Origin: an uncultured Clostridia bacterium
GTDB lineage: Bacteria; Bacillota; Clostridia; Oscillospirales; Acutalibacteraceae
NCBI GenBank assembly: GCA_947585615.1
Contig: CANPXD010000011.1
Location: 1-37,062 of the forward strand
Direction of reading: 5' to 3'
Length of the DNA: 37,062 bases
Shown here: piece by piece, positions 17,640-35,164 of the stretch
Layout of the letters: the number at the start of each line of letters is the position of its first letter
How positions within the stretch are numbered: position 1 is the first letter of the stretch
The notes under the pieces: generated by a model
What the model saw: the letters and a program-made list of their open reading frames with translations, nothing else
Databases searched by the model: none
What the model was told of the DNA's origin: nothing
Program-made: the position numbers and the translations under genes

Positions 17640-17885
17640 ATATGTAAAAACGCTGATTGGGAGAAGTAAACAGTTTTTCTTTTTTCAGAGAGTGGACTTT
17701 TTGCTGGAATGTCCATATTAAGAATCTGTTGAAATGCACCCGTGAGTTCCGCAAAGGAAATAACAGTATTTTGCGGCGGTAAGCACCGTTATCTGTGAAG
17801 CTGCTGAAACGCAGTTGAGTTATAAGTAAGAGTGGAACCGCAGTTAATTGCCTCTGTCTGTAAGGACGGGGCATTTGTTTTTTAT
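17640..17885 (+). promoter_or_regulatory. Cysteine T-box riboswitch
   Basis: tRNA-sensing leader controlling cysE-cysS. Stem I begins near GGGAGAAGTAAAC. The specifier-loop segment GAAATGCACC carries TGC (17735-17737), the Cys codon. The T-box core GTGGAACCGCAG is at 17832-17843, and its TGGA pairs with a UCCA acceptor end, matching the U discriminator of tRNA-Cys. The intrinsic terminator follows (TGCCTC...GTC at 17849-17858 with GACGGGGCA at 17865-17873, then TTTGTTTTTT). Uncharged tRNA-Cys should favour the antiterminator and expression. The specifier codon, acceptor match and downstream genes all agree. Confidence 0.94.
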
Positions 17886-27263: not shown

Positions 27264-27920
27264 ATGGATAGTTTTGAAATTAAAGACGGAAACTTTGAGA
27301 TAATAAAAGAAAAAAACAGCAGACTCGAGATTGTCAAAGAGGATAAAAAAGATTTTTTTGAACTGTTTAAAGATAATAAGACTGTTTTTTACTCTGTGAT
27401 GTTCTATGCGGCAGGACTTCTTTGCGGCTCATTTGTCTATAAAAAATGTCAGAATGATCTGCTGAATGGAGTTCTTGCACCGGCAAAAAGCGAGTTTTTA
27501 CAATTGTTTTTAAACAATTTGAGTCTTTATCTGATTATATTTGCCGCTTCGGTATTGCTTGGTGTATGTCTTGTCGGTTTTCCGCTGCTTAATATAATTC
27601 CTTTTTTTGTCGGAATAGAAGCAGGAATGAAAATAGCTTATTTTTATGTTAATTATTCCGTTAAAGGGATAGGATATTCGCTTTTAATGGTAGCGCCTTT
27701 TGTCTGCTTATTTTTAACGGTGATTATTTATTCTATATCAATGAGCTACAATCTGAGTAAAAGCATTTATGATATAACAGTAAAAAAATCAGATATATCC
27801 GAGCATTTCAACTACAGGACATATCTGAAAAAATATCTTATCTACTGCGGTATGATTATACTCGTTTCGTTAATCAATACCGCTGTCTGCACCGCTCTCA
27901 GCGGCATTATTGCGCTTTAG
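27264..27920 (+). CDS. spoIIM: SpoIIM-like membrane protein (stage II sporulation protein M family)
   Basis: SpoIIM works with SpoIID and SpoIIP in peptidoglycan degradation during engulfment in endospore formers. The 218-aa protein has a charged N-terminal ~45 residues, then about five hydrophobic segments. The family layout is visible (VFYSVMFYAAGLLCGSFV, then LGVCLVGFPLLNIIPFFVGIEAGMKIAYF and a C-terminal YLIYCGMIILVSLI). It follows the TIGR04086-like gene by 3 nt. Its last 14 bp overlap the convergent xerD gene. In Bacillus spoIIM also lies close to xerD, supporting the call. Presence suggests, but does not prove, a spore-forming lineage. Confidence 0.78.
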   Translation: MDSFEIKDGNFEIIKEKNSRLEIVKEDKKDFFELFKDNKTVFYSVMFYAAGLLCGSFVYKKCQNDLLNGVLAPAKSEFLQLFLNNLSLYLIIFAASVLLGVCLVGFPLLNIIPFFVGIEAGMKIAYFYVNYSVKGIGYSLLMVAPFVCLFLTVIIYSISMSYNLSKSIYDITVKKSDISEHFNYRTYLKKYLIYCGMIILVSLINTAVCTALSGIIAL

Positions 27921-28881
27921 ATAAATCGTTAAGAGGATTGGCTTCAACTGCTTTTTTTGCGGCGTCGCTTGAAATGTGCGTGTAAATCTCTGTAGTTCCG
28001 AGATTTTCATGACCGAGAATTTCTTTTAAAAGCAGAACATCTACATTACCGTGCTGATACATAAGCGTCGCGGCAGTATGGCGAAGCTTATGTACAGATA
28101 AGCCTCTGTTGCCGAGACCTGCCTTTTCAAGATTAGTATAAACCAGATGTTGAACGGTTTTCGGACTGATTCGCTGATTTCTTGAACTTAAAAACAGCGC
28201 ATGGTCTTTAACGCCGTCATTTGGTCTCTTTTTCATATAAGAAGTATATGCGTCAATACACGCCTGATTAAGATAAACGGTTCGCTCTTTGTTGCCTTTT
28301 CCCGTAATTACGAGCGAGCCGTCCGATTTTATATCATTATAATCAATGGAAACAAGCTCTGAGAGCCGCAGGCCGCAATTCAGGAAGAATGTAATGATGG
28401 CGTAATCCCGTTCTTTGTAGGGACCGTCAATCACTGATAAAAGACGCTCAGCCTCCTCAAGGCTCAGATATTTCGGAAGAGCGCGTTTAGTCTTTGGTAT
28501 ATCGAGATTCTTCATCGGATTATATTCAAGCAGTCCGAGATTATCTGTCAGATAAATAAAAAATCTTCTTATTGCAATAACACGCCTGGCACGTGTGTTT
28601 TCATTATTATGGCGCACATTTTTACAGTATATAAGAAACTGGTATGCGTCATTCAACGTAATTTTTTTAATAAACTCAATGTCGATAGGGGACAGATCAA
28701 TCTGTTCATCACTTACATCGCTGCCGATTTTTGTTTTTTCCCGCATTAAGTATCTGAAGAAAGTTCTCAGGTCAGACGCATATTCAATAACAGAAAGTTC
28801 AGAGTGACCCTTTATCGCTTCAATGTAAATTAAGTATTGCTGAACAAGAATGGGTAATTTAGCAAAATCTTCTCGTTTCAT
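27907..28881 (-). CDS. xerD: Site-specific tyrosine recombinase XerD-like
   Basis: Tyrosine recombinase that resolves chromosome dimers at dif with a Xer partner. The start at 28881 (324 aa) is chosen because GAAAGG at 28892-28897 has a proper distance to it; an ATG three codons earlier abuts that site. The N-terminal SAM-like domain (about 1-115) is followed by the catalytic domain with R (CGLRLSEL), K (TGKGNKERTV), H-x-x-R (VHKLRHTAATL), H (LGHENLGT) and Y (TEIYTHI). The gene is full length and intact, unlike the minimal recombinase at 30741-31313. Neighbourhood with spoIIM supports a housekeeping Xer. It could be a single XerA-type enzyme. Confidence 0.85.
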   Translation of the reverse strand: MKREDFAKLPILVQQYLIYIEAIKGHSELSVIEYASDLRTFFRYLMREKTKIGSDVSDEQIDLSPIDIEFIKKITLNDAYQFLIYCKNVRHNNENTRARRVIAIRRFFIYLTDNLGLLEYNPMKNLDIPKTKRALPKYLSLEEAERLLSVIDGPYKERDYAIITFFLNCGLRLSELVSIDYNDIKSDGSLVITGKGNKERTVYLNQACIDAYTSYMKKRPNDGVKDHALFLSSRNQRISPKTVQHLVYTNLEKAGLGNRGLSVHKLRHTAATLMYQHGNVDVLLLKEILGHENLGTTEIYTHISSDAAKKAVEANPLNDLSKAQ

Positions 28882-28895
28882 AAAATTCATCCTTT

Positions 28896-29113: not shown

Positions 29114-30169
29114 TTGTTAAATCCGTTATACAAAAATATGAATAATAGAATTGAATGGATAGATACTGTTAAATACATATGTATAATGTTTGTAATGCTT
29201 ACTCACCTTGAAAGTTGCACAGAAGAATTAAGAACATTTTTTAATCCGTTTTTCTTGATGTTATTTTTCTTTTGCTCAGGTTATGTCTATAAAAATAATA
29301 GATCGTTCAAGGCGTTTATCTTAAAGAAAATTCGTCAATTATTTGTTCCTTGGTTAGTATTTTCCTGTTTAAACATATTTTTAGCACAAATATTGTCTTT
29401 TAATAAACACTCTGATTTGTTTGAAGAATTAAAGTGGAATTTTTTGCAAATCAGAGGATTGAATGACGGGTTATGGTTTATTGCGGCATTGTTTATTACA
29501 TATATTCCTTTTTATTTTTATGTAAAAAAATATGAAGAATCAAAAAATAAATACAAACATATTATTTTTGTTTGTATTTCATTAATTTTTTCTTTTATAA
29601 GTATATTATACACTAAATTAATGCCGGCAGAATTGCTTCCATGGGGTTCCGTGAATCTACCATGGCATATGGAATATGTTTTTCAGGCAATGTTATTTAT
29701 GTTTATAGGTTATATTTTCAAGAATAAAATTGAAAATAAAATTGATTTGTATAATACCGGAAAAAACAGATTTATTTTAATGCTGGTATATGTGATTATA
29801 AGATATGCAGTATATTTTAGTGGAGTACATTTTTCCGTTATTATTGAAATAATTTACAGTTATTTATCACAATTGTTTGGCTGTCTATTAATAATTGATT
29901 TTTCTAAAGTAATAAAAAGCAATAAATATTTTAATTTTGTTGGGCAAAACACGTTGCTTTATTTTGCTCTTCATGGTAAGTTTTATAGTCTGTTTCAAAC
30001 GATTTTGAAAAATTTTGATATATATAACATGATTTTAAAGAATACGATTTATTCATCAATATTTGCTATATTTCTTACTGTTATATTATCCTTAGTATTA
30101 ATTTTACCTGTTTATATTATAAATAGATATTTTCCGTTTTTAATAGGAAGAAAAAAGAAAGATAATTAA
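29114..30169 (+). CDS. Acyltransferase 3 family membrane protein
   Basis: Polytopic membrane acyltransferase of the PF01757 type, which O-acylates cell-surface sugars. The 351-aa protein starts RIEWIDTVKYICIMFVMLTHL, with the family's N-terminal helix and His. About ten hydrophobic helices follow, with FFFCSGYVYK and IRQLFVPWLVFS blocks. The start is a TTG with AAGGAG (29101-29106) at 7-nt spacing; an ATG at 29138 is the alternative. Base composition is strikingly AT-rich compared with flanking genes, with long A/T runs and AT-ending codons, suggesting recent acquisition. No glycan cluster adjoins it, so the acceptor is unknown. Confidence 0.82.
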   Translation: MLNPLYKNMNNRIEWIDTVKYICIMFVMLTHLESCTEELRTFFNPFFLMLFFFCSGYVYKNNRSFKAFILKKIRQLFVPWLVFSCLNIFLAQILSFNKHSDLFEELKWNFLQIRGLNDGLWFIAALFITYIPFYFYVKKYEESKNKYKHIIFVCISLIFSFISILYTKLMPAELLPWGSVNLPWHMEYVFQAMLFMFIGYIFKNKIENKIDLYNTGKNRFILMLVYVIIRYAVYFSGVHFSVIIEIIYSYLSQLFGCLLIIDFSKVIKSNKYFNFVGQNTLLYFALHGKFYSLFQTILKNFDIYNMILKNTIYSSIFAIFLTVILSLVLILPVYIINRYFPFLIGRKKKDN

Positions 30170-30336
30170 AATGTACTTTATGAAAAGAAACACATATAAA
30201 GAAAAAAGATAAGCATATCAAATTCGTTCTCTTAAACTATAAGAATTAAGTGTATCTATCTATTAATAAACATATATTGTTCTGCGGAACGTTTATAGAT
30301 TGTATTAAATCACTCGCCTTTTTTGCGCAAAATATT

Positions 30337-30351
30337 TATTTTGTATAATTG
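30337..30351 (+). repeat. Left copy of 15-bp direct repeat (candidate att core)
   Basis: TATTTTGTATAATTG, identical to 33641-33655. The pair brackets the sRNA, the recombinase-to-rep cassette and the GC-rich region (3304 bp apart). Confidence 0.45.
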
Positions 30352-30460
30352 CTAATCGCAAATTATCGCCCGCGCAAACGCAGGCTTACAAAATAAGCGT
30401 TTTGTCTAATCGTCTACGGGAGCGGTTCAGAGACGCTGCTACAAATCACCCTAACCCCCG

Positions 30461-30480
30461 CCTTTCCCTCAAGGGAAAGG
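30461..30480. repeat. REP-like hairpin
   Basis: CCTTTCCC-TCAA-GGGAAAGG, a perfect 8-bp stem with a 4-nt loop, preceded by a C-rich tract (CACCCTAACCCCCG). It resembles dispersed intergenic palindromes of gut Clostridia. Confidence 0.5.
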
Positions 30481-30530
30481 AGCGGCAAGTGTAGAAATAT
30501 CTGCGCTGAAAATCCTTTCTAAAAATTTGA

Positions 30531-30559
30531 TTGACAAACACGTTTGATTATGGTATAGT
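30531..30559 (+). promoter_or_regulatory. Strong promoter of a candidate small RNA
   Basis: TTGACA (30531-30536), 17-bp spacer, TATAGT (30554-30559). One of the best promoter matches in the window, with no coding gene downstream. Confidence 0.75.
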
Positions 30560-30565
30560 AAGTCT

Positions 30566-30684
30566 TGGCAAGTGTGGAAGAAATAACTTTCACAAGCATT
30601 CCCCTTTGTCCATATTGGTGGCTGGTGGTTCTGTCATCAATGGGAATGTACCATAAAAACCCGGCTTTGTCAAGCCGGGTTTTT
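30566..30684 (+). ncRNA. Candidate free-standing structured small RNA (about 120 nt)
   Basis: It is framed by a consensus promoter (30531-30559) and a strong terminator (30655-30684). The body has two stems whose right arms are contiguous: CATTCCC/GGGAATG (30597-30603 with 30642-30648) and ATTGGTG/CATCAAT (30614-30620 with 30635-30641, one wobble pair). A 10-nt bulge lies on the left strand and a 14-nt loop rich in GGTGG is at the tip. No ribosome site plus open frame is present. I do not recognise the family. It lies at the 3' side of the minus-strand recombinase gene, so a role in the element's control is possible. Confidence 0.55.
30655..30684. terminator. Strong bidirectional terminator (small RNA and recombinase cassette)
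   Basis: A 13-bp stem including ACCCGGCTT/AAGCCGGGT (30655-30667 with 30672-30684) and a TGTC loop. There are T runs on both strands, so it can end the plus-strand RNA and the minus-strand rep-to-recombinase transcript. Confidence 0.9.
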
Positions 30685-30740
30685 AATTTTGTTCATGCGC
30701 TTGATATGCTACAACAAGTTAACAATATAGAAAATGTCAA

Positions 30741-31313
30741 TTATTTTAAGCTTTTTTTCCGGGCTTTGCTGCGCATTTTTAATGCGGTGTAGGTATCTGC
30801 AAGCGCATAAATCAATGTGTCGCTGTCGTGGCTATGATTTAAAGCGAGTTGTACTTTGTCAAGATCATTGCCATTTTGTAGCAAGTCAACTGCATATGCC
30901 TTGCGTGTCGAATGCGGCGCAATGTTCTGCTTTAATCGTAGCGCCCTTCGAGCGCGCTTTAAATCAGCCCACACAGCTTGGCGAGTTCTGTGACTGCAAA
31001 TATCGTCCCTTCCCTCAAAAACATATATTGAGCCTTTTTGAGCATATAATCTATCAAAAAGCGCCTTTGAGAGCCGTTTCCGGCTCTTTTTTTGCGTTTT
31101 TTTCTCAATTATTGTAATCGAAGTAGTTCCCTTTTTTTCAGCATCTTGCAGCGCTTCAGAGGTCAACGAAAGGCAATCATCAATCCGCCAGCCAGTTTGT
31201 AATGCAAGTTCACAAACTAAAGCATTTGTAGGTGTCAAGCATTGCATCATACAAGCCCACAAGTCTCTGTCAATGAAATCTGTTTTTATTCTATCCCCTC
31301 CCATTCTAGCCAT
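30741..31313 (-). CDS. Minimal tyrosine recombinase/integrase (catalytic domain only)
   Basis: Predicted site-specific recombinase of the element. The 190-aa protein consists of little more than the catalytic domain. Visible active-site residues are R43 (TGWRIDDCLSL), a Lys in the beta-hairpin (KKTQKKSRK, 71-79), H134-x2-R137 (PHSTRKAYA), H160 (ALNHSHDSDT) and Y169 (TLIYALAD). An N-terminal core-binding domain is missing, as in FimB/FimE-sized recombinases. The ATG at 31313 has AAAGG upstream and overlaps the previous gene by 28 nt; a strong GGGAGGGG inside the frame has no good start codon after it. The basic C-terminus (RSKARKKSLK) may bind DNA. It is last in the four-gene cassette. Confidence 0.78.
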   Translation of the reverse strand: MARMGGDRIKTDFIDRDLWACMMQCLTPTNALVCELALQTGWRIDDCLSLTSEALQDAEKKGTTSITIIEKKTQKKSRKRLSKALFDRLYAQKGSIYVFEGRDDICSHRTRQAVWADLKRARRALRLKQNIAPHSTRKAYAVDLLQNGNDLDKVQLALNHSHDSDTLIYALADTYTALKMRSKARKKSLK

Positions 31314-31618
31314 AGCTTATTTGCCTTTTGCAAGGCAACTGCGCAGTATTTTAAGTGGTTGTAAATTGTATGCGTGGCAACAGCTAAATGCCTGCAAACG
31401 GTAGGCTGAGAAATGTGCAGCGTGCGCGCAATCTCGCATTGTGTCATTTGCTCTTCAAATTTAAGCTTTATACACCTTTGCTGTTGCTCTGAAAGTTCAT
31501 ATTTCATTATGAGATTAAGAGCAACGCGAATTGCTTCGCGCGTTATTTTCTGTGTGTCAACGTCTAAATCAAAATTTTCATCATTTTCCCCACAAAACAA
31601 CTGAATAAAATCAATCAT
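31286..31618 (-). CDS. Sigma-70 region 4-like HTH protein of the element
   Basis: Small predicted DNA-binding protein of 110 aa. Residues ~40-95 form a sigma region 4-type helix-turn-helix: LSEQQQRCIKLKFEEQMTQCEIARTLHISQPTVCRHLAVAT. Sigma region 2 is absent, so it is not a full sigma factor. Comparable phage and plasmid proteins act as late-gene or copy-control activators, but that is by analogy. The ATG at 31618 overlaps the preceding gene by 8 bp and has GAGGGAA upstream; its end overlaps the recombinase start by 28 bp. It probably controls this element or its recombinase. Confidence 0.65.
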   Translation of the reverse strand: MIDFIQLFCGENDENFDLDVDTQKITREAIRVALNLIMKYELSEQQQRCIKLKFEEQMTQCEIARTLHISQPTVCRHLAVATHTIYNHLKYCAVALQKANKLWLEWEGIE

Positions 31619-31808
31619 AATATTCCCTCAAAATAACTGAAATCCGGCGACAGTCAGTAGCCATGTCATAATATGCAGCAATTTTGCGTTGTAATTGAAA
31701 TAAATCTTCACCAGTGTAAACACGAAGTAGAGGGCGCAATCCGTCTACTTTTGCGAATAAAATACCAGCTTGCTGCTGATATTCATCAGCTAATTTGTCA
31801 ATTTCCAA
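31611..31808 (-). CDS. Hypothetical 65-aa protein of the element
   Basis: Not recognised. The product (MEIDKLADEYQQQAGILFAKVDGLRPLLRVYTG...) is predicted to be mostly alpha-helical and charged, with no Cys pairs, TM segment or signal peptide. It starts with TTG directly after the rep stop, with GAGGT about 8 nt upstream, and overlaps the next gene by 8 bp. This tight packing between rep and the sigma-like gene is the main evidence that it is real. Small proteins in this position of phage-like sigma operons are often partners of the HTH protein, but nothing here proves that. Confidence 0.5.
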   Translation of the reverse strand: MEIDKLADEYQQQAGILFAKVDGLRPLLRVYTGEDLFQLQRKIAAYYDMATDCRRISVILREYYD

Positions 31809-31809
31809 A

Positions 31810-32709
31810 TCAGTACCTCACATATTTTTTAAGTCCTTTGTCATAGCGGAAATAATAAACCTCATCATAATTATCCGCAATGCAGAAGGTTTCTTCTTCC
31901 TCAATACCCAAAGCCTTAAAAGCTTCTTTAATCAGTCCGTATTTTTGTACACAACGTTGACCCTTTAAAACAATGCCATATGTGCGCAACACATATTGTG
32001 CCGCCGTTGTGTCAAGATTCCCAAGTTCCAACGGCTTAACACAATATTTGCATACTTCAGCAACACCTTTCGCTACATCTCCCTTAATTGCTCCAACAGA
32101 TATTTGATAAGGTCCTCCAGAGTTGCAAGCGCGCTGCCAAAGCAAACGCAGCTTGTCATAACTCAAATAATCTCTGCTTGTAAAATAGCTTTCATTCACT
32201 GCAACAAGGCAATGTAAATGCGGATGAAATGTTCCAACCTTTTCGTTGTATGTAATCTCTAGGCAGCGCAAACAGCCCCTAAAAGCCTTTTTTATTTCTT
32301 TGTACTTGTAGAACCTTCCGAAGCTTTTAAAAAGTTCTGAAACGCATTTGTTTAAAGCTGTGCCACCTTTGCAATTCGGAACGGTCAAAACAAGATGGAT
32401 ATATCGAACTTTATATTTTTCAAGGTATGCGCACACCTGCAAAGTGTTTGCATACATTTTTAAACTCTTTCTTTTTTGGCACATAGGACAAAGTCGTTGC
32501 CTGCAAAAATTTGCAGAAACAAGATTATACTTACCGTCTGCGCCTTTTGAAAACCCGAGAAAATCCCCGCAATTGGAAAGTTTTTCAGATACCTCATTAA
32601 GCAAAAAATCATCCCTGAGTAAATCGGCAATCCTGCTTGTCGTATCTTTATACTTTTCAAATTCCGAAGTCAAATCATCAGCTTGTATTTTGGTAAAATC
32701 ACTATACAC
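31810..32709 (-). CDS. rep: Rolling-circle replication initiator protein (Rep_1/HUH type)
   Basis: Nicks the plus origin and starts rolling-circle replication. The 299-aa protein shows a zinc-type cluster C69...C74-x2-C77 (NFCRQRLCPMCQKRKSLK), the HUH metal motif at 162-166 (FHPHLHCLVAV) and the nicking tyrosine motif EVCKYCVKP (Y222). This order matches the pC194/pUB110 Rep family. The start is a GTG at 32709 with no clear ribosome site. An ATG-started small frame at 32736 with AAAGGG in front overlaps it in another frame and may couple translation. It is first of four tightly spaced minus-strand genes. A Rep gene on a chromosome with a recombinase implies an integrated replicon. Confidence 0.85.
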   Translation of the reverse strand: MYSDFTKIQADDLTSEFEKYKDTTSRIADLLRDDFLLNEVSEKLSNCGDFLGFSKGADGKYNLVSANFCRQRLCPMCQKRKSLKMYANTLQVCAYLEKYKVRYIHLVLTVPNCKGGTALNKCVSELFKSFGRFYKYKEIKKAFRGCLRCLEITYNEKVGTFHPHLHCLVAVNESYFTSRDYLSYDKLRLLWQRACNSGGPYQISVGAIKGDVAKGVAEVCKYCVKPLELGNLDTTAAQYVLRTYGIVLKGQRCVQKYGLIKEAFKALGIEEEETFCIADNYDEVYYFRYDKGLKKYVRY

Positions 32710-32779
32710 TGAAAAATGCCTAAACAGCGCATCATTACTGGCTTTGAAGCCATTTTGCCACCCTTTGAGATATTTCTAA

Positions 32780-32809
32780 ATTATCAAGATAAGTAACAGA
32801 AAGCAGCAA
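32780..32809 (-). promoter_or_regulatory. Possible promoter of the rep cassette
   Basis: On the minus strand TTGCTG (32809-32804), 18-bp spacer, GATAAT (32785-32780). Moderate match, about 70 nt before the rep start. Confidence 0.4.
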
Positions 32810-32820
32810 CGCAATAAGAG

Positions 32821-33560
32821 GCGGTCGCTTCGCTCCCTCGCTGGCATATCGTCAAATCGGTTTCTCGCCTTGCTCGGTCAATGCGTCTACGCCCTCCGCT
32901 GCTTCGCTCCCCAAGCCCTCGTTGTATCCGCCTTGGGCTTGGTGCGGCTTGCCCGCGCTCGGCTCAGTGCGCCAACGCCCGGGCTTCGCCGAAGCCTCGG
33001 GCTTGCGCCGCCGCCGCTTCGTTGTCTCCGCTCCGCTGCGCGCTTCCTCGCGGGCGGCGTTCGCGGCGCTCGAGCAAAATCTAAATTGGCCCGCTGTGCT
33101 AGCCCCTCCGTCTAAGCGCAAGGGTAACCCTTCGGCTCGTTCCTCGCCCTTGCGCACGCTCCGGGGCAACGCCACGCTTCTGATTTCTCGCTCCAACACG
33201 TCAATATCTCGCGCCGCATCCTCTGCGGCAGTTTCCCGTCCCGGCGCCTTGGCGGCCGGGGCGCGTTCGCCCCCGGGCTCCGCTGCCCTCCAGCCTTGCA
33301 TTTGCTAGCTACGCTAAATCGCTGCGCAACGCAAATGCGGCGGCGCGTTCTCGCTGCGCTCAATCCGGTCGTGCCCCCGGCCGCAAGGGGCGCGGCCATT
33401 CTGGCCGCAGGTAGCGCCCCGCTGGGGCGCAAAAGCGCTGCGCTAGCAAAGGAAGCAAATAACCCCGAAAAGGGCAAAAGCCCTTTCGGGCGCTCCCATT
33501 GTAGCTGCGCATACAATCAGCTTTTTGCAAGGGCTTCGCAAGTTTCGCCCAATCATATGC
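32821..33560. other. GC-rich, hairpin-dense non-coding region upstream of rep
   Basis: Composition changes abruptly from AT-rich flanks to a strongly GC-rich tract. It contains at least nine perfect or near-perfect inverted repeats, for example CCAAGCCC/GGGCTTGG (32911/32935), GGCTTC-gcc-GAAGCC extended by GCCCG/CGGGC (32977-33002), GCGCAAGGG/CCCTTGCGC (33116/33147), GCATTTGC/GCAAATGC (33298/33331), GCGCCCC-gct-GGGGCGC (33414-33430) and CCCGAAAAGGGC/GCCCTTTCGGG (33464-33490). Open frames exist on both strands but none has a ribosome site or protein-like composition. Candidates are the rolling-circle origins (dso/sso) or a large structured RNA. Confidence 0.6.
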
Positions 33561-33598
33561 TCGCAGGCTCGCCAAAAGTGGCTCAACCCTTGCAAAAA
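33522..33598. repeat. 12-bp perfect inverted repeat at the right side of the element
   Basis: TTTTTGCAAGGG (33522-33533) and CCCTTGCAAAAA (33587-33598) with 53 nt between. The right arm abuts the minus-strand attenuator-like terminator. Confidence 0.65.
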
Positions 33599-33601
33599 AA
33601 A

Positions 33602-33625
33602 TAATCGGCAACACCCTTGCCGATT
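33602..33625 (-). terminator. Promoter-proximal intrinsic terminator (attenuator-like)
   Basis: On the minus strand AATCGGCAAgggtgTTGCCGATT (33625-33603) is followed by ATTTTTTTT. It lies about 20-45 nt after the predicted start of transcription from the promoter at 33680-33652. Confidence 0.8.
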
Positions 33626-33629
33626 AAAC

Positions 33630-33666
33630 AAAACTTCGTATATTTTGTATAATTGTATCAAGTTTT
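33630..33666. repeat. Recombination-site-like imperfect inverted repeat with the right copy of the 15-bp direct repeat
   Basis: Two 13-bp arms (33630-33642 and 33654-33666; AAAACTT...AAGTTTT, 10 of 13 pairing) flank an 11-bp centre. The 15-bp repeat TATTTTGTATAATTG (33641-33655) covers this centre. Arm-centre-arm is the layout of tyrosine recombinase core sites. Confidence 0.45.
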
Positions 33667-33790: not shown

Positions 33791-35164
33791 TTAATTTTCT
33801 GTCAGCGAATGAAATGCGTCTCTGATTGTTCTTACGGGCACAATATCAACATTGATTTTCAGTTCCCTCGACAGTCCTTTATAATTGTGAAAAGGAATGA
33901 TACACCTTTCAAAACCGAGTCTATGTGCTTCGGAAACACGCTGTTCGCAATGATTTACCGCTCTTATTTCCCCTGCCAGTCCAATTTCACCGAAAGCGAT
34001 AACCTTGTCATTGACAATGGCATCCTTTAACGAGGAAACAAGGGCCATTGCTACTGATAAATCAGCTGAAGGATCATCAAGCTTTAGTCCGCCGACAACA
34101 TTTATGTAAGTGTCCATATTGTTGAAAAAGTACCCTGCCCTTTTTTCAAGAACAGCGATAATCATTGCCATTCTGTTATAATCAAATCCAGTACTCATTC
34201 TTCTCGGAGTACCGTAACCTGTTGCTGAAACAAGACCCTGAACTTCTGCAAGAATCGGGCGTGAACCTTCCATTACACAGGCAACGCAAGTTCCGCTTGT
34301 GTTTTTTGGTCTGCCTGAAAGCATAAGAAGTGATGGATTTTCCACTTCCCTTAGACCGTTTTGCAGCATTTCAAAAACGCCGATTTCATTTGTTGAGCCA
34401 AAACGGTTTTTTACTCCGCGGAGTATTCTGTATGAATAGTTGCGTTCGCCCTCGAAGTACAGAACCGTGTCCACAATATGCTCAAGCACCTTAGGACCTG
34501 CAATAGCACCGTCTTTATTGACGTGACCGACTACAAAAATCGGTATTCCGAAAGATTTTGCCGTCTGCATAAAAATGTTAGTGCACTCTCTCACCTGCGT
34601 AACCGAGCCTGCGGACGAGCTGCATTCATCGTAGATCATTGTTTGTATTGAGTCGATAATTACAATGTCGGGTTTTTCGCTTTTTATCGTTTCAACAATG
34701 CAGCCGACATCAGTCTGAGCAAGAATCGAAAGATTGTCCGTATGTACACAAAGTCTGTTTGCACGAAGCTTGATCTGAGTCACGGATTCCTCACCGCTTA
34801 CATAGAGAACACTTCTTTCCTTGCCGAGATATTCGCATATTTGAAGGAGTATAGTTGACTTTCCTATTCCCGGATCACCGCTTATAAGAACAAGGCTTCC
34901 GATAACGATTCCCCCGCCGAGTACCCTGTCAAATTCCTTGATTCCCGTTGAAATCCTTTGTTCAACGTCCCCGGTTATATCTCTGAGTTTTATTGATTTT
35001 TGAGGAGAATTAACCGCAGACGCGTTTTTTTGCTTAGCAGAAGAAACAGTGGGAAATTCCTCGTTCATTGTGTTCCATTCTCCGCAGCCGGGGCATTTTC
35101 CGTACCACTTTGCACTTTCAAAACCACATTGACTGCAAACATAAACAGATTTTAATTTAGCCAT
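33791..35164 (-). CDS. radA: DNA repair protein RadA/Sms
   Basis: RecA-related DNA-dependent ATPase/helicase helping branch migration in recombination. The 457-aa length is standard. N-terminal zinc finger C10-x2-C13...C24-x2-C27 (YVCSQCGFESAKWYGKCPGCGEWN). Walker A is GDPGIGKST at 96-104. The RadA-specific KNRFG motif is at 252-256. The Lon-like C-terminal domain follows (GGLKLDDPSADLSVAMALVSS, EIGLAGEIRAV). Its start overlaps the cwlD 3' end by 8 bp, so the two are cotranscribed. Confidence 0.97.
   Translation of the reverse strand: MAKLKSVYVCSQCGFESAKWYGKCPGCGEWNTMNEEFPTVSSAKQKNASAVNSPQKSIKLRDITGDVEQRISTGIKEFDRVLGGGIVIGSLVLISGDPGIGKSTILLQICEYLGKERSVLYVSGEESVTQIKLRANRLCVHTDNLSILAQTDVGCIVETIKSEKPDIVIIDSIQTMIYDECSSSAGSVTQVRECTNIFMQTAKSFGIPIFVVGHVNKDGAIAGPKVLEHIVDTVLYFEGERNYSYRILRGVKNRFGSTNEIGVFEMLQNGLREVENPSLLMLSGRPKNTSGTCVACVMEGSRPILAEVQGLVSATGYGTPRRMSTGFDYNRMAMIIAVLEKRAGYFFNNMDTYINVVGGLKLDDPSADLSVAMALVSSLKDAIVNDKVIAFGEIGLAGEIRAVNHCEQRVSEAHRLGFERCIIPFHNYKGLSRELKINVDIVPVRTIRDAFHSLTEN

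Follow-up and report, generated by a model that had tools for sequence, protein, structure and literature searches.

A small rolling-circle plasmid probably integrated at a putative dif site beside xer in an uncultured clostridial bacterium

Introduction

In the published accounts considered here (PMC5357621, PMC9765430), the mobile elements that integrate at dif are phages and one genomic island, and they use host Xer recombinases. In Vibrio cholerae, CTXphi, VGJphi and TLCphi, known as integrative mobile elements exploiting Xer (IMEX), are phages that borrow XerC and XerD; they are rolling-circle replicons, occur in tandem arrays with other elements and integrate at dif through a dif-like attachment site that differs from dif on one side, with strand exchange being one-sided in CTXphi and VGJphi (PMC5357621). 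XafT is a Xer-activating factor of a Vibrio IMEX, and LME-1 of Legionella integrates through a dif mimic in a host with a single recombinase, XerL, whose palindromic dif lies near the terminus and far from xer (PMC9765430). Here, we describe a 3.3-kb element in a 37,062-nucleotide contig of an uncultured Clostridia bacterium of the Acutalibacteraceae (GCA_947585615.1, CANPXD010000011.1), the whole of which we call the window and the gene content of which suggests a gut Clostridia-type host. At 30337..33655, four minus-strand open reading frames (ORFs), encoding a replication initiator (Rep), a 65-aa protein, a protein with sigma-70 region 4 (sigma-r4) and a tyrosine recombinase (Int), are bracketed by two copies of the repeat TATTTTGTATAATTG, and we regard this unit as probably a small rolling-circle plasmid that has inserted into the putative dif of its host.

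The likeness to the V. cholerae elements covers insertion at dif, a dif-like site diverging on one side, rolling-circle replication and tandem arrangement with other elements. In contrast to them, however, the window element has no recognised phage genes and encodes its own recombinase, and the site in its host, a near-perfect palindrome, adjoins one xer. With LME-1 it shares the dif mimic, a palindromic putative dif near the terminus and possibly a host with a single recombinase, whereas LME-1 belongs to another size class and host and uses the host enzyme, and xer is adjacent to dif here. Both dif-related hallmarks of IMEX were found, namely insertion at a putative dif, as judged by sequence, position and xer linkage, and a dif mimic; because the element encodes its own catalytic-domain-only recombinase, we nevertheless do not file it as an IMEX. 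Searches of the open-access literature, PMC3025954 included, yielded no dif-docked rolling-circle plasmid with its own recombinase and no description of a palindromic radA-dif-xer locus, subscription papers and preprints being outside this scope.

Results

The element ends share one arm of a dif-like site

The ends of the element are formed by a perfect 15-bp direct repeat, the copies of which lie 3304 bp apart and coincide with the limits proposed in an initial annotation of the sequence. This repeat corresponds to one arm of the putative dif plus the start of the spacer, a target that the initial annotation had not recognised. Each end can be read as a pair of inverted arms around a spacer, which is 6 nt long at the Int-side junction and 9 nt long in the mimic at the Rep-side junction (Table 1). 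Joining the two flanks without the element gives CAATTATACAAAA-TAAATA-TTTTGCGCAAA, the site typical of the genus with a variant second arm. A dif-like site alone is only moderately beyond chance, as 12 of 500 resampled versions of the 4-kb region contained one with arms at least 9/11 paired; the strength of the observation comes from the recurrence of the same arrangement in other genomes. Neither a tRNA, none of which is present in the window, nor a promoter-like -10 sequence, abandoned after reading sister species, was retained as the insertion target.

Table 1. Features of the element and its flanks, in window coordinates.
Feature	Position	Strand	Remark
host xer	27907..28890	-	flank, outside the element
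6-nt-spacer dif junction, Int side	30322..30349	-	ATTATACAAAA-TAAATA-TTTTGCGCAAA
15-bp direct repeat, xer-side copy	30337..30351	.	
terminator-like hairpin downstream of Int	30654..30685	-	perfect 14-bp arms, then T run
Int, 190-aa tyrosine recombinase	30741..31313	-	catalytic domain only
110-aa protein	31286..31618	-	sigma-70 region 4
65-aa protein	31611..31808	-	no family
rep, 299 aa	31810..32709	-	Rep_1 (HUH) replication initiator
TTATCTTGATA, candidate double-strand-origin nick site	32782..32792	-	~70 nt upstream of rep
GC-rich block between mimic and rep	32850..33600	.	no recognised gene
dif mimic, 9-nt spacer, Rep-side junction	33623..33653	-	ATTATACAAAA-TATACGAAG-TTTTGTTTAAT; arms 10/11 paired
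15-bp direct repeat, radA-side copy	33641..33655	.	
host radA	33791..35164	-	flank, outside the element; name by eye

A putative dif site lies between radA and xer

A search for radA in 41 genomes of the genus matched 31, including the element's own genome; leaving out G258, we read the downstream DNA in the remaining 29 (G numbers denote genomes, L numbers loci or records). In 23 of these 29 sister-species loci there was an uninterrupted palindrome whose two 11-nt arms, paired at 8 to 11 positions, enclose a 6-nt spacer, as in ATTATACAAAA-TTAATA-TTTTGTATAAT, and in the same 23 xer followed directly behind it. The arms covary between species (ATTTCGCAAAA/TTTTGCGAAAT, ATTGCACAAAA/TTTTGTGCAAT). 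Among the remaining loci, the contigs of L034 and L037 stop exactly at the dif site, and in L047 (G264) the left dif arm runs into unrelated DNA whose small ORFs are of unclear kind. In L033 the 15-mer appears no nearer than 5.2 kb downstream, and neither L043 nor L058 has a site in the DNA downstream of radA; matches of L033 and L058 at the scan threshold (8/11, four core mismatches) were counted as chance. The contig ends in L034 and L037 may reflect a site that was mixed or occupied among the sampled cells, and L047 may hold a third kind of dif-associated element.

Each of three family genomes that consist of a single contig has the site, or its core motif, opposite dnaA: at about 1,690,650 of 3,435,529 with dnaA at 319 in G247 and, where only the core motif was checked, at 1,130,788 of about 2.5 Mb with dnaA at 431 in G007 and at 1,949,379 of about 2.3 Mb with dnaA at 754,361 in G054. 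Of 150 family genomes, 86 contained the core motif and 10 its reversed control. Cumulative GC skew in the window reaches its maximum in the 30-31 kb bin, after an earlier dip at 21-24 kb; near the site, skew turns from positive to mostly negative in G267 and from positive to near zero in G247. A search of the element's own genome (96.65% complete) with an Xer query returned one match; since the element's Int was not among its results, the search may overlook distant recombinases. G219 has a second, XerD-like gene. Sequence, position and xer linkage together indicate that the radA-xer palindrome is very probably dif, the chromosome-dimer-resolution site. Many sister sites (L035-L061) also show a conserved AGGGGAGT-like box 2-3 nt after dif, which reads AAAGGCGAGT at about 30315 in the window and is perhaps a site for an accessory factor.

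The arrangement of Int, dif and mimic recurs across the order

A search with the single Int sequence (E up to 1e-10) matched 8 of 250 family genomes, and a profile search (1e-20) matched 15 of 394 order genomes; these genome sets overlap with each other and with that of the genus. As regards occupancy, which the initial annotation expected to vary between strains, variation was seen between species: Int is present in 2 of 80 genus genomes (profile, 1e-20), and most of the radA-downstream loci above are uninterrupted. We compared the window with 19 other Int loci, scoring a 6-nt dif (AAA, six nucleotides, TTT; arms at least 10/11 paired; at most 1.5 kb from Int) and, across Int from it, a mimic, defined by a spacer of 7-11 nt and arms that match, one at 10/11 or better and the other at 8/11 or better. 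The window itself was not scored by the 6-nt rule, since its second dif arm is degenerate; its mimic was found. The palindrome scan downstream of radA, set at 8 pairs, did not report the window junction either, although the core-motif search did. Candidate mimics that overlapped dif itself (L089, L090) were discarded.

A 6-nt dif was found within 1.5 kb of Int in 14 of the 19 loci, with first-order resamples of each region giving such a site in 0-2 of 100, and 11 of the 19 had both the dif and a mimic across the element, including loci from other families of the order. In the window and in 13 of these 14 loci, the dif was located 3' of Int; integrated copies sit between a long-spacer mimic and a 6-nt-spacer dif. 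The two junctions share, beyond the arm, the spacer starts TA in the window, TATTCA in G247, TAAA in G219, G127, G018, G417 and G367, TGA in G154, TAAATG in G646 and T in G570, as well as the unusual GGA in G542 and TGCAA in G462. Because the sequence in common covers the arm and extends 1-6 nt into the spacer, the crossover is placed at the boundary of arm and spacer on the Int side. Hints of tandem copies come from L027, with a truncated second Int before the mimic, and L096, with two long-spacer sites. In a search of genome contigs, the distant Int locus L014 (30% identity) was the sole match, and Rep had no relative there or among viral contigs.

Rep and Int recur together, the middle genes do not

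The proteins bear out most of the initial annotation, which had described a tightly packed minus-strand cassette with gene overlaps of 8 and 28 bp; the four ORFs are real and both overlaps were confirmed. Rep matches Rep_1 (PF01446) with E 1.3e-44 and 153 bits against a Pfam cut-off of 33.2, and the predicted zinc cluster, HUH motif and nicking tyrosine correspond to C69/C74/C77, H162/H164/H166 and Y222, unchanged across seven aligned Reps. A Rep_1 match above the cut-off with HUH motif and tyrosine is what characterises Rep_1 rolling-circle plasmids, those of the pC194/pUB110 type. Such plasmids also have a nick-site sequence upstream of rep; the candidate here, TTATCTTGATA, corresponds to the nick motif of that type. 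Of 10 records of elements or plasmids scanned, 7 contained an exact copy (L064, L066 and L067 did not), and further copies with one mismatch were seen at other places in the window as well as in L027 and L028.

As the initial annotation had suspected, the 110-aa protein matches Sigma70_r4 (Pfam, E 1e-9) and Int is a minimal tyrosine recombinase (Phage_integrase, PF00589; E 1.3e-18, 67.8 bits); the 65-aa protein matched no Pfam family up to E 1. In Int, R43, K72, H134, R137, H160 and Y169, which we assign as the presumptive catalytic set, are kept in 14 of 14 sequences. An Int profile matched the catalytic domains of solved recombinases, with two entries named 'Integrase' at the top (5dor and 5c6k, 117-260 of 292) followed by Xer proteins such as XerD (129-279 of 290) and XerH (193-350 of 363). 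The SAM-like N-terminal match is present in the host Xer and absent from Int. Pfam found no relaxase family among the four element proteins and one long ORF in the GC-rich block, a relaxase or oriT for transfer being the mark of an integrative mobilizable element; oriT was not searched for.

The cassette did not prove to be a travelling unit of four genes, as had been assumed. Rep_1 and Int occur together in the window, L026, L027, L028, L098, L015, L062, L064, L066 and L067, and in L114, whose Rep is 43% identical to that of the window. Int is accompanied by PF23343 Reps in L030, L031 and L032, by Reps resembling these in L029, L084, L089, L090 and L093-L097, and by Rep_OBD (L063) or RepL (L065), while the Rep queries used found none in L091, L092 and L099. 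The window sigma-r4 protein, in turn, had no relative at 1e-5 in 26 other sources examined and none among the plasmids searched; a sigma-r4 protein in G247 is weakly similar (24% over 58 aa), and a small G247 ORF has the size of the 65-aa protein without aligning to it.

Relatives are recorded as circles

Int matched 18 plasmid records, of which seven are circular plasmids of uncultured bacteria with 35-48% identity and the rest have 26-29%. Clear mimics were found in two of the seven, ATTGCACAAAA-TTAAACATG-TTTTGTGCAAT in L015 and ATTATACAAAA-TAAAAGAAAG-TTTTGTATCAT in L062; among 500 resampled sequences each, a mimic appeared in 5 for L015, 5 for L062 and 0 for L064. An unconstrained search for inverted repeats gave mostly unrelated hairpins. 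The gut plasmids pRGI00891 and pRGI00836 (HG796394, HG796380) resemble the window element in Rep_1 (46% identity), Int (48%) and a long-spacer dif mimic, but are known only as circles, measure 2.6-2.7 kb and have no sigma-r4 gene by phmmer. Five Rep_1 plasmids outside the 18 records, without such an Int, had no mimic on scanning; the window element shares their Rep_1 family and nick-site-like motif and, unlike them, is integrated and encodes a recombinase. In addition, a 3323-bp contig of G343 with Rep_1 and a distant Int carries a 141-bp exact terminal repeat and is therefore probably a 3182-bp circle. Circular forms are recorded, or assemble as such, for relatives only. The initial proposal of a rolling-circle element that is integrated and encodes a recombinase is supported.

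Further features of the locus

The GC-rich block is possibly a single-strand origin. An Rfam gathering search of the window did not identify it as a known RNA, and its folding was not strongly structured beyond composition (free-energy z of only -1.8 on 20 shuffles). By eye, long GC-rich stretches also lie upstream of rep in the G247 and G219 elements, as does a similar small ORF (L002 3402-3698 and L027 7490-7984, respectively) that the window element lacks. Outside the element, a 24% GC, acyltransferase-like ORF (by eye) at 29114-30169 separates its dif junction from xer, and a T-box leader (RF00230, the only Rfam match in the window) lies at 17644-17858 upstream of cysE/cysS-like genes (names by eye).

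In G247, an inovirus-like prophage (L026 1015-6650; Zot PF05707, Rep_trans PF02486) occupies the dif and adjoins the rolling-circle element; the Int profile found no recombinase inside it at 1e-10.

Discussion

Our analysis suggests how such an element could reach dif. Rep would nick at or near TTATCTTGATA and amplify the circle. Int, probably together with host Xer bound to the arms, would then exchange strands at the Int-side boundary. Since the spacers of mimic and dif differ in length and, beyond a few bases, in sequence, a single strand pair is exchangeable in register and the usual two-step reaction is not open to them; the reaction may resemble that of CTXphi and VGJphi in this respect. 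Completion of the junction would fall to replication or repair, and a 6-nt dif would remain next to the element, with the sigma-r4 and 65-aa proteins perhaps serving as accessory regulators. More broadly, these loci may represent a lineage of rolling-circle plasmids of about 2-4.4 kb that use a catalytic-domain-only, Xer-like recombinase, perhaps mixed with Xer, for single strand exchange between a long-spacer mimic and the host dif, by means of an Int/mimic cassette common to unrelated Reps that leaves a 6-nt dif; we consider this wider reading evenly balanced.

Several observations weigh against this picture. No 6-nt dif was found in 5 of the 19 other loci (L029, L092, L095, L098, L099) and no mimic, by the criteria applied, in 8; G127, in a scaffold with an assembly gap, breaks the geometry. 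Among the circular Int plasmids, the mimic is weak in L064 and absent from four others, and the circular G343 contig has no recognisable one. In G231, GC skew gives no clear signal near the site. The second dif arm of the window pairs at only 7 of 11 positions, counted by hand, and the genus relative G646 has an interrupted Int. Finally, the G247 prophage sits at dif with no detected recombinase, so host Xer is probably able to act there and may suffice.

This last point bears on the alternative that the element is a true IMEX in effect, in which host Xer alone carries out the crossover at dif, the role of Int being confined to resolving multimers of the plasmid at the mimic or to activating Xer in the manner of XafT of TLCphi. 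The prophage, the match between mimic arms and host-specific dif arms in several hosts, and the integration of LME-1 via XerL (PMC9765430) all fit such a scheme. Against it speak the recurrence of Int across different Reps and, in 13 of 14 loci, its position next to the arm on the crossover side, as expected of an integration module, even if a resolvase would still be compatible with that position; on balance, we find the scheme rather unlikely. We think it less likely still that the window copy is an immobile relic of a once-mobile element. The degenerate arm, the interrupted Int of G646 and the presence of a single copy in the genome could be read that way, yet all four ORFs are open, the conserved Int residues are present, the mimic arms pair well and the candidate nick site is intact. 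An ordinary rolling-circle plasmid inserted by chance or homologous recombination, with a coincidental repeat, might be invoked given that the repeat is A+T-rich and only 15 bp long and that resampled regions do yield occasional sites; this is contradicted by the recurrent geometry in 11 other loci, across families of the order, and by the conserved site that the joined flanks restore, leaving it highly improbable.

Together, these findings favor a small rolling-circle plasmid integrated at the host's putative dif. To the dif-integrating elements introduced above they add rolling-circle plasmids of very small size that encode a minimal recombinase themselves, and they point to a palindromic dif/xer locus, radA-dif-xer. 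They further suggest a route by which cryptic plasmids of the gut that lack recognised genes for partition, mobilisation or cargo may persist, namely by docking in the chromosome.

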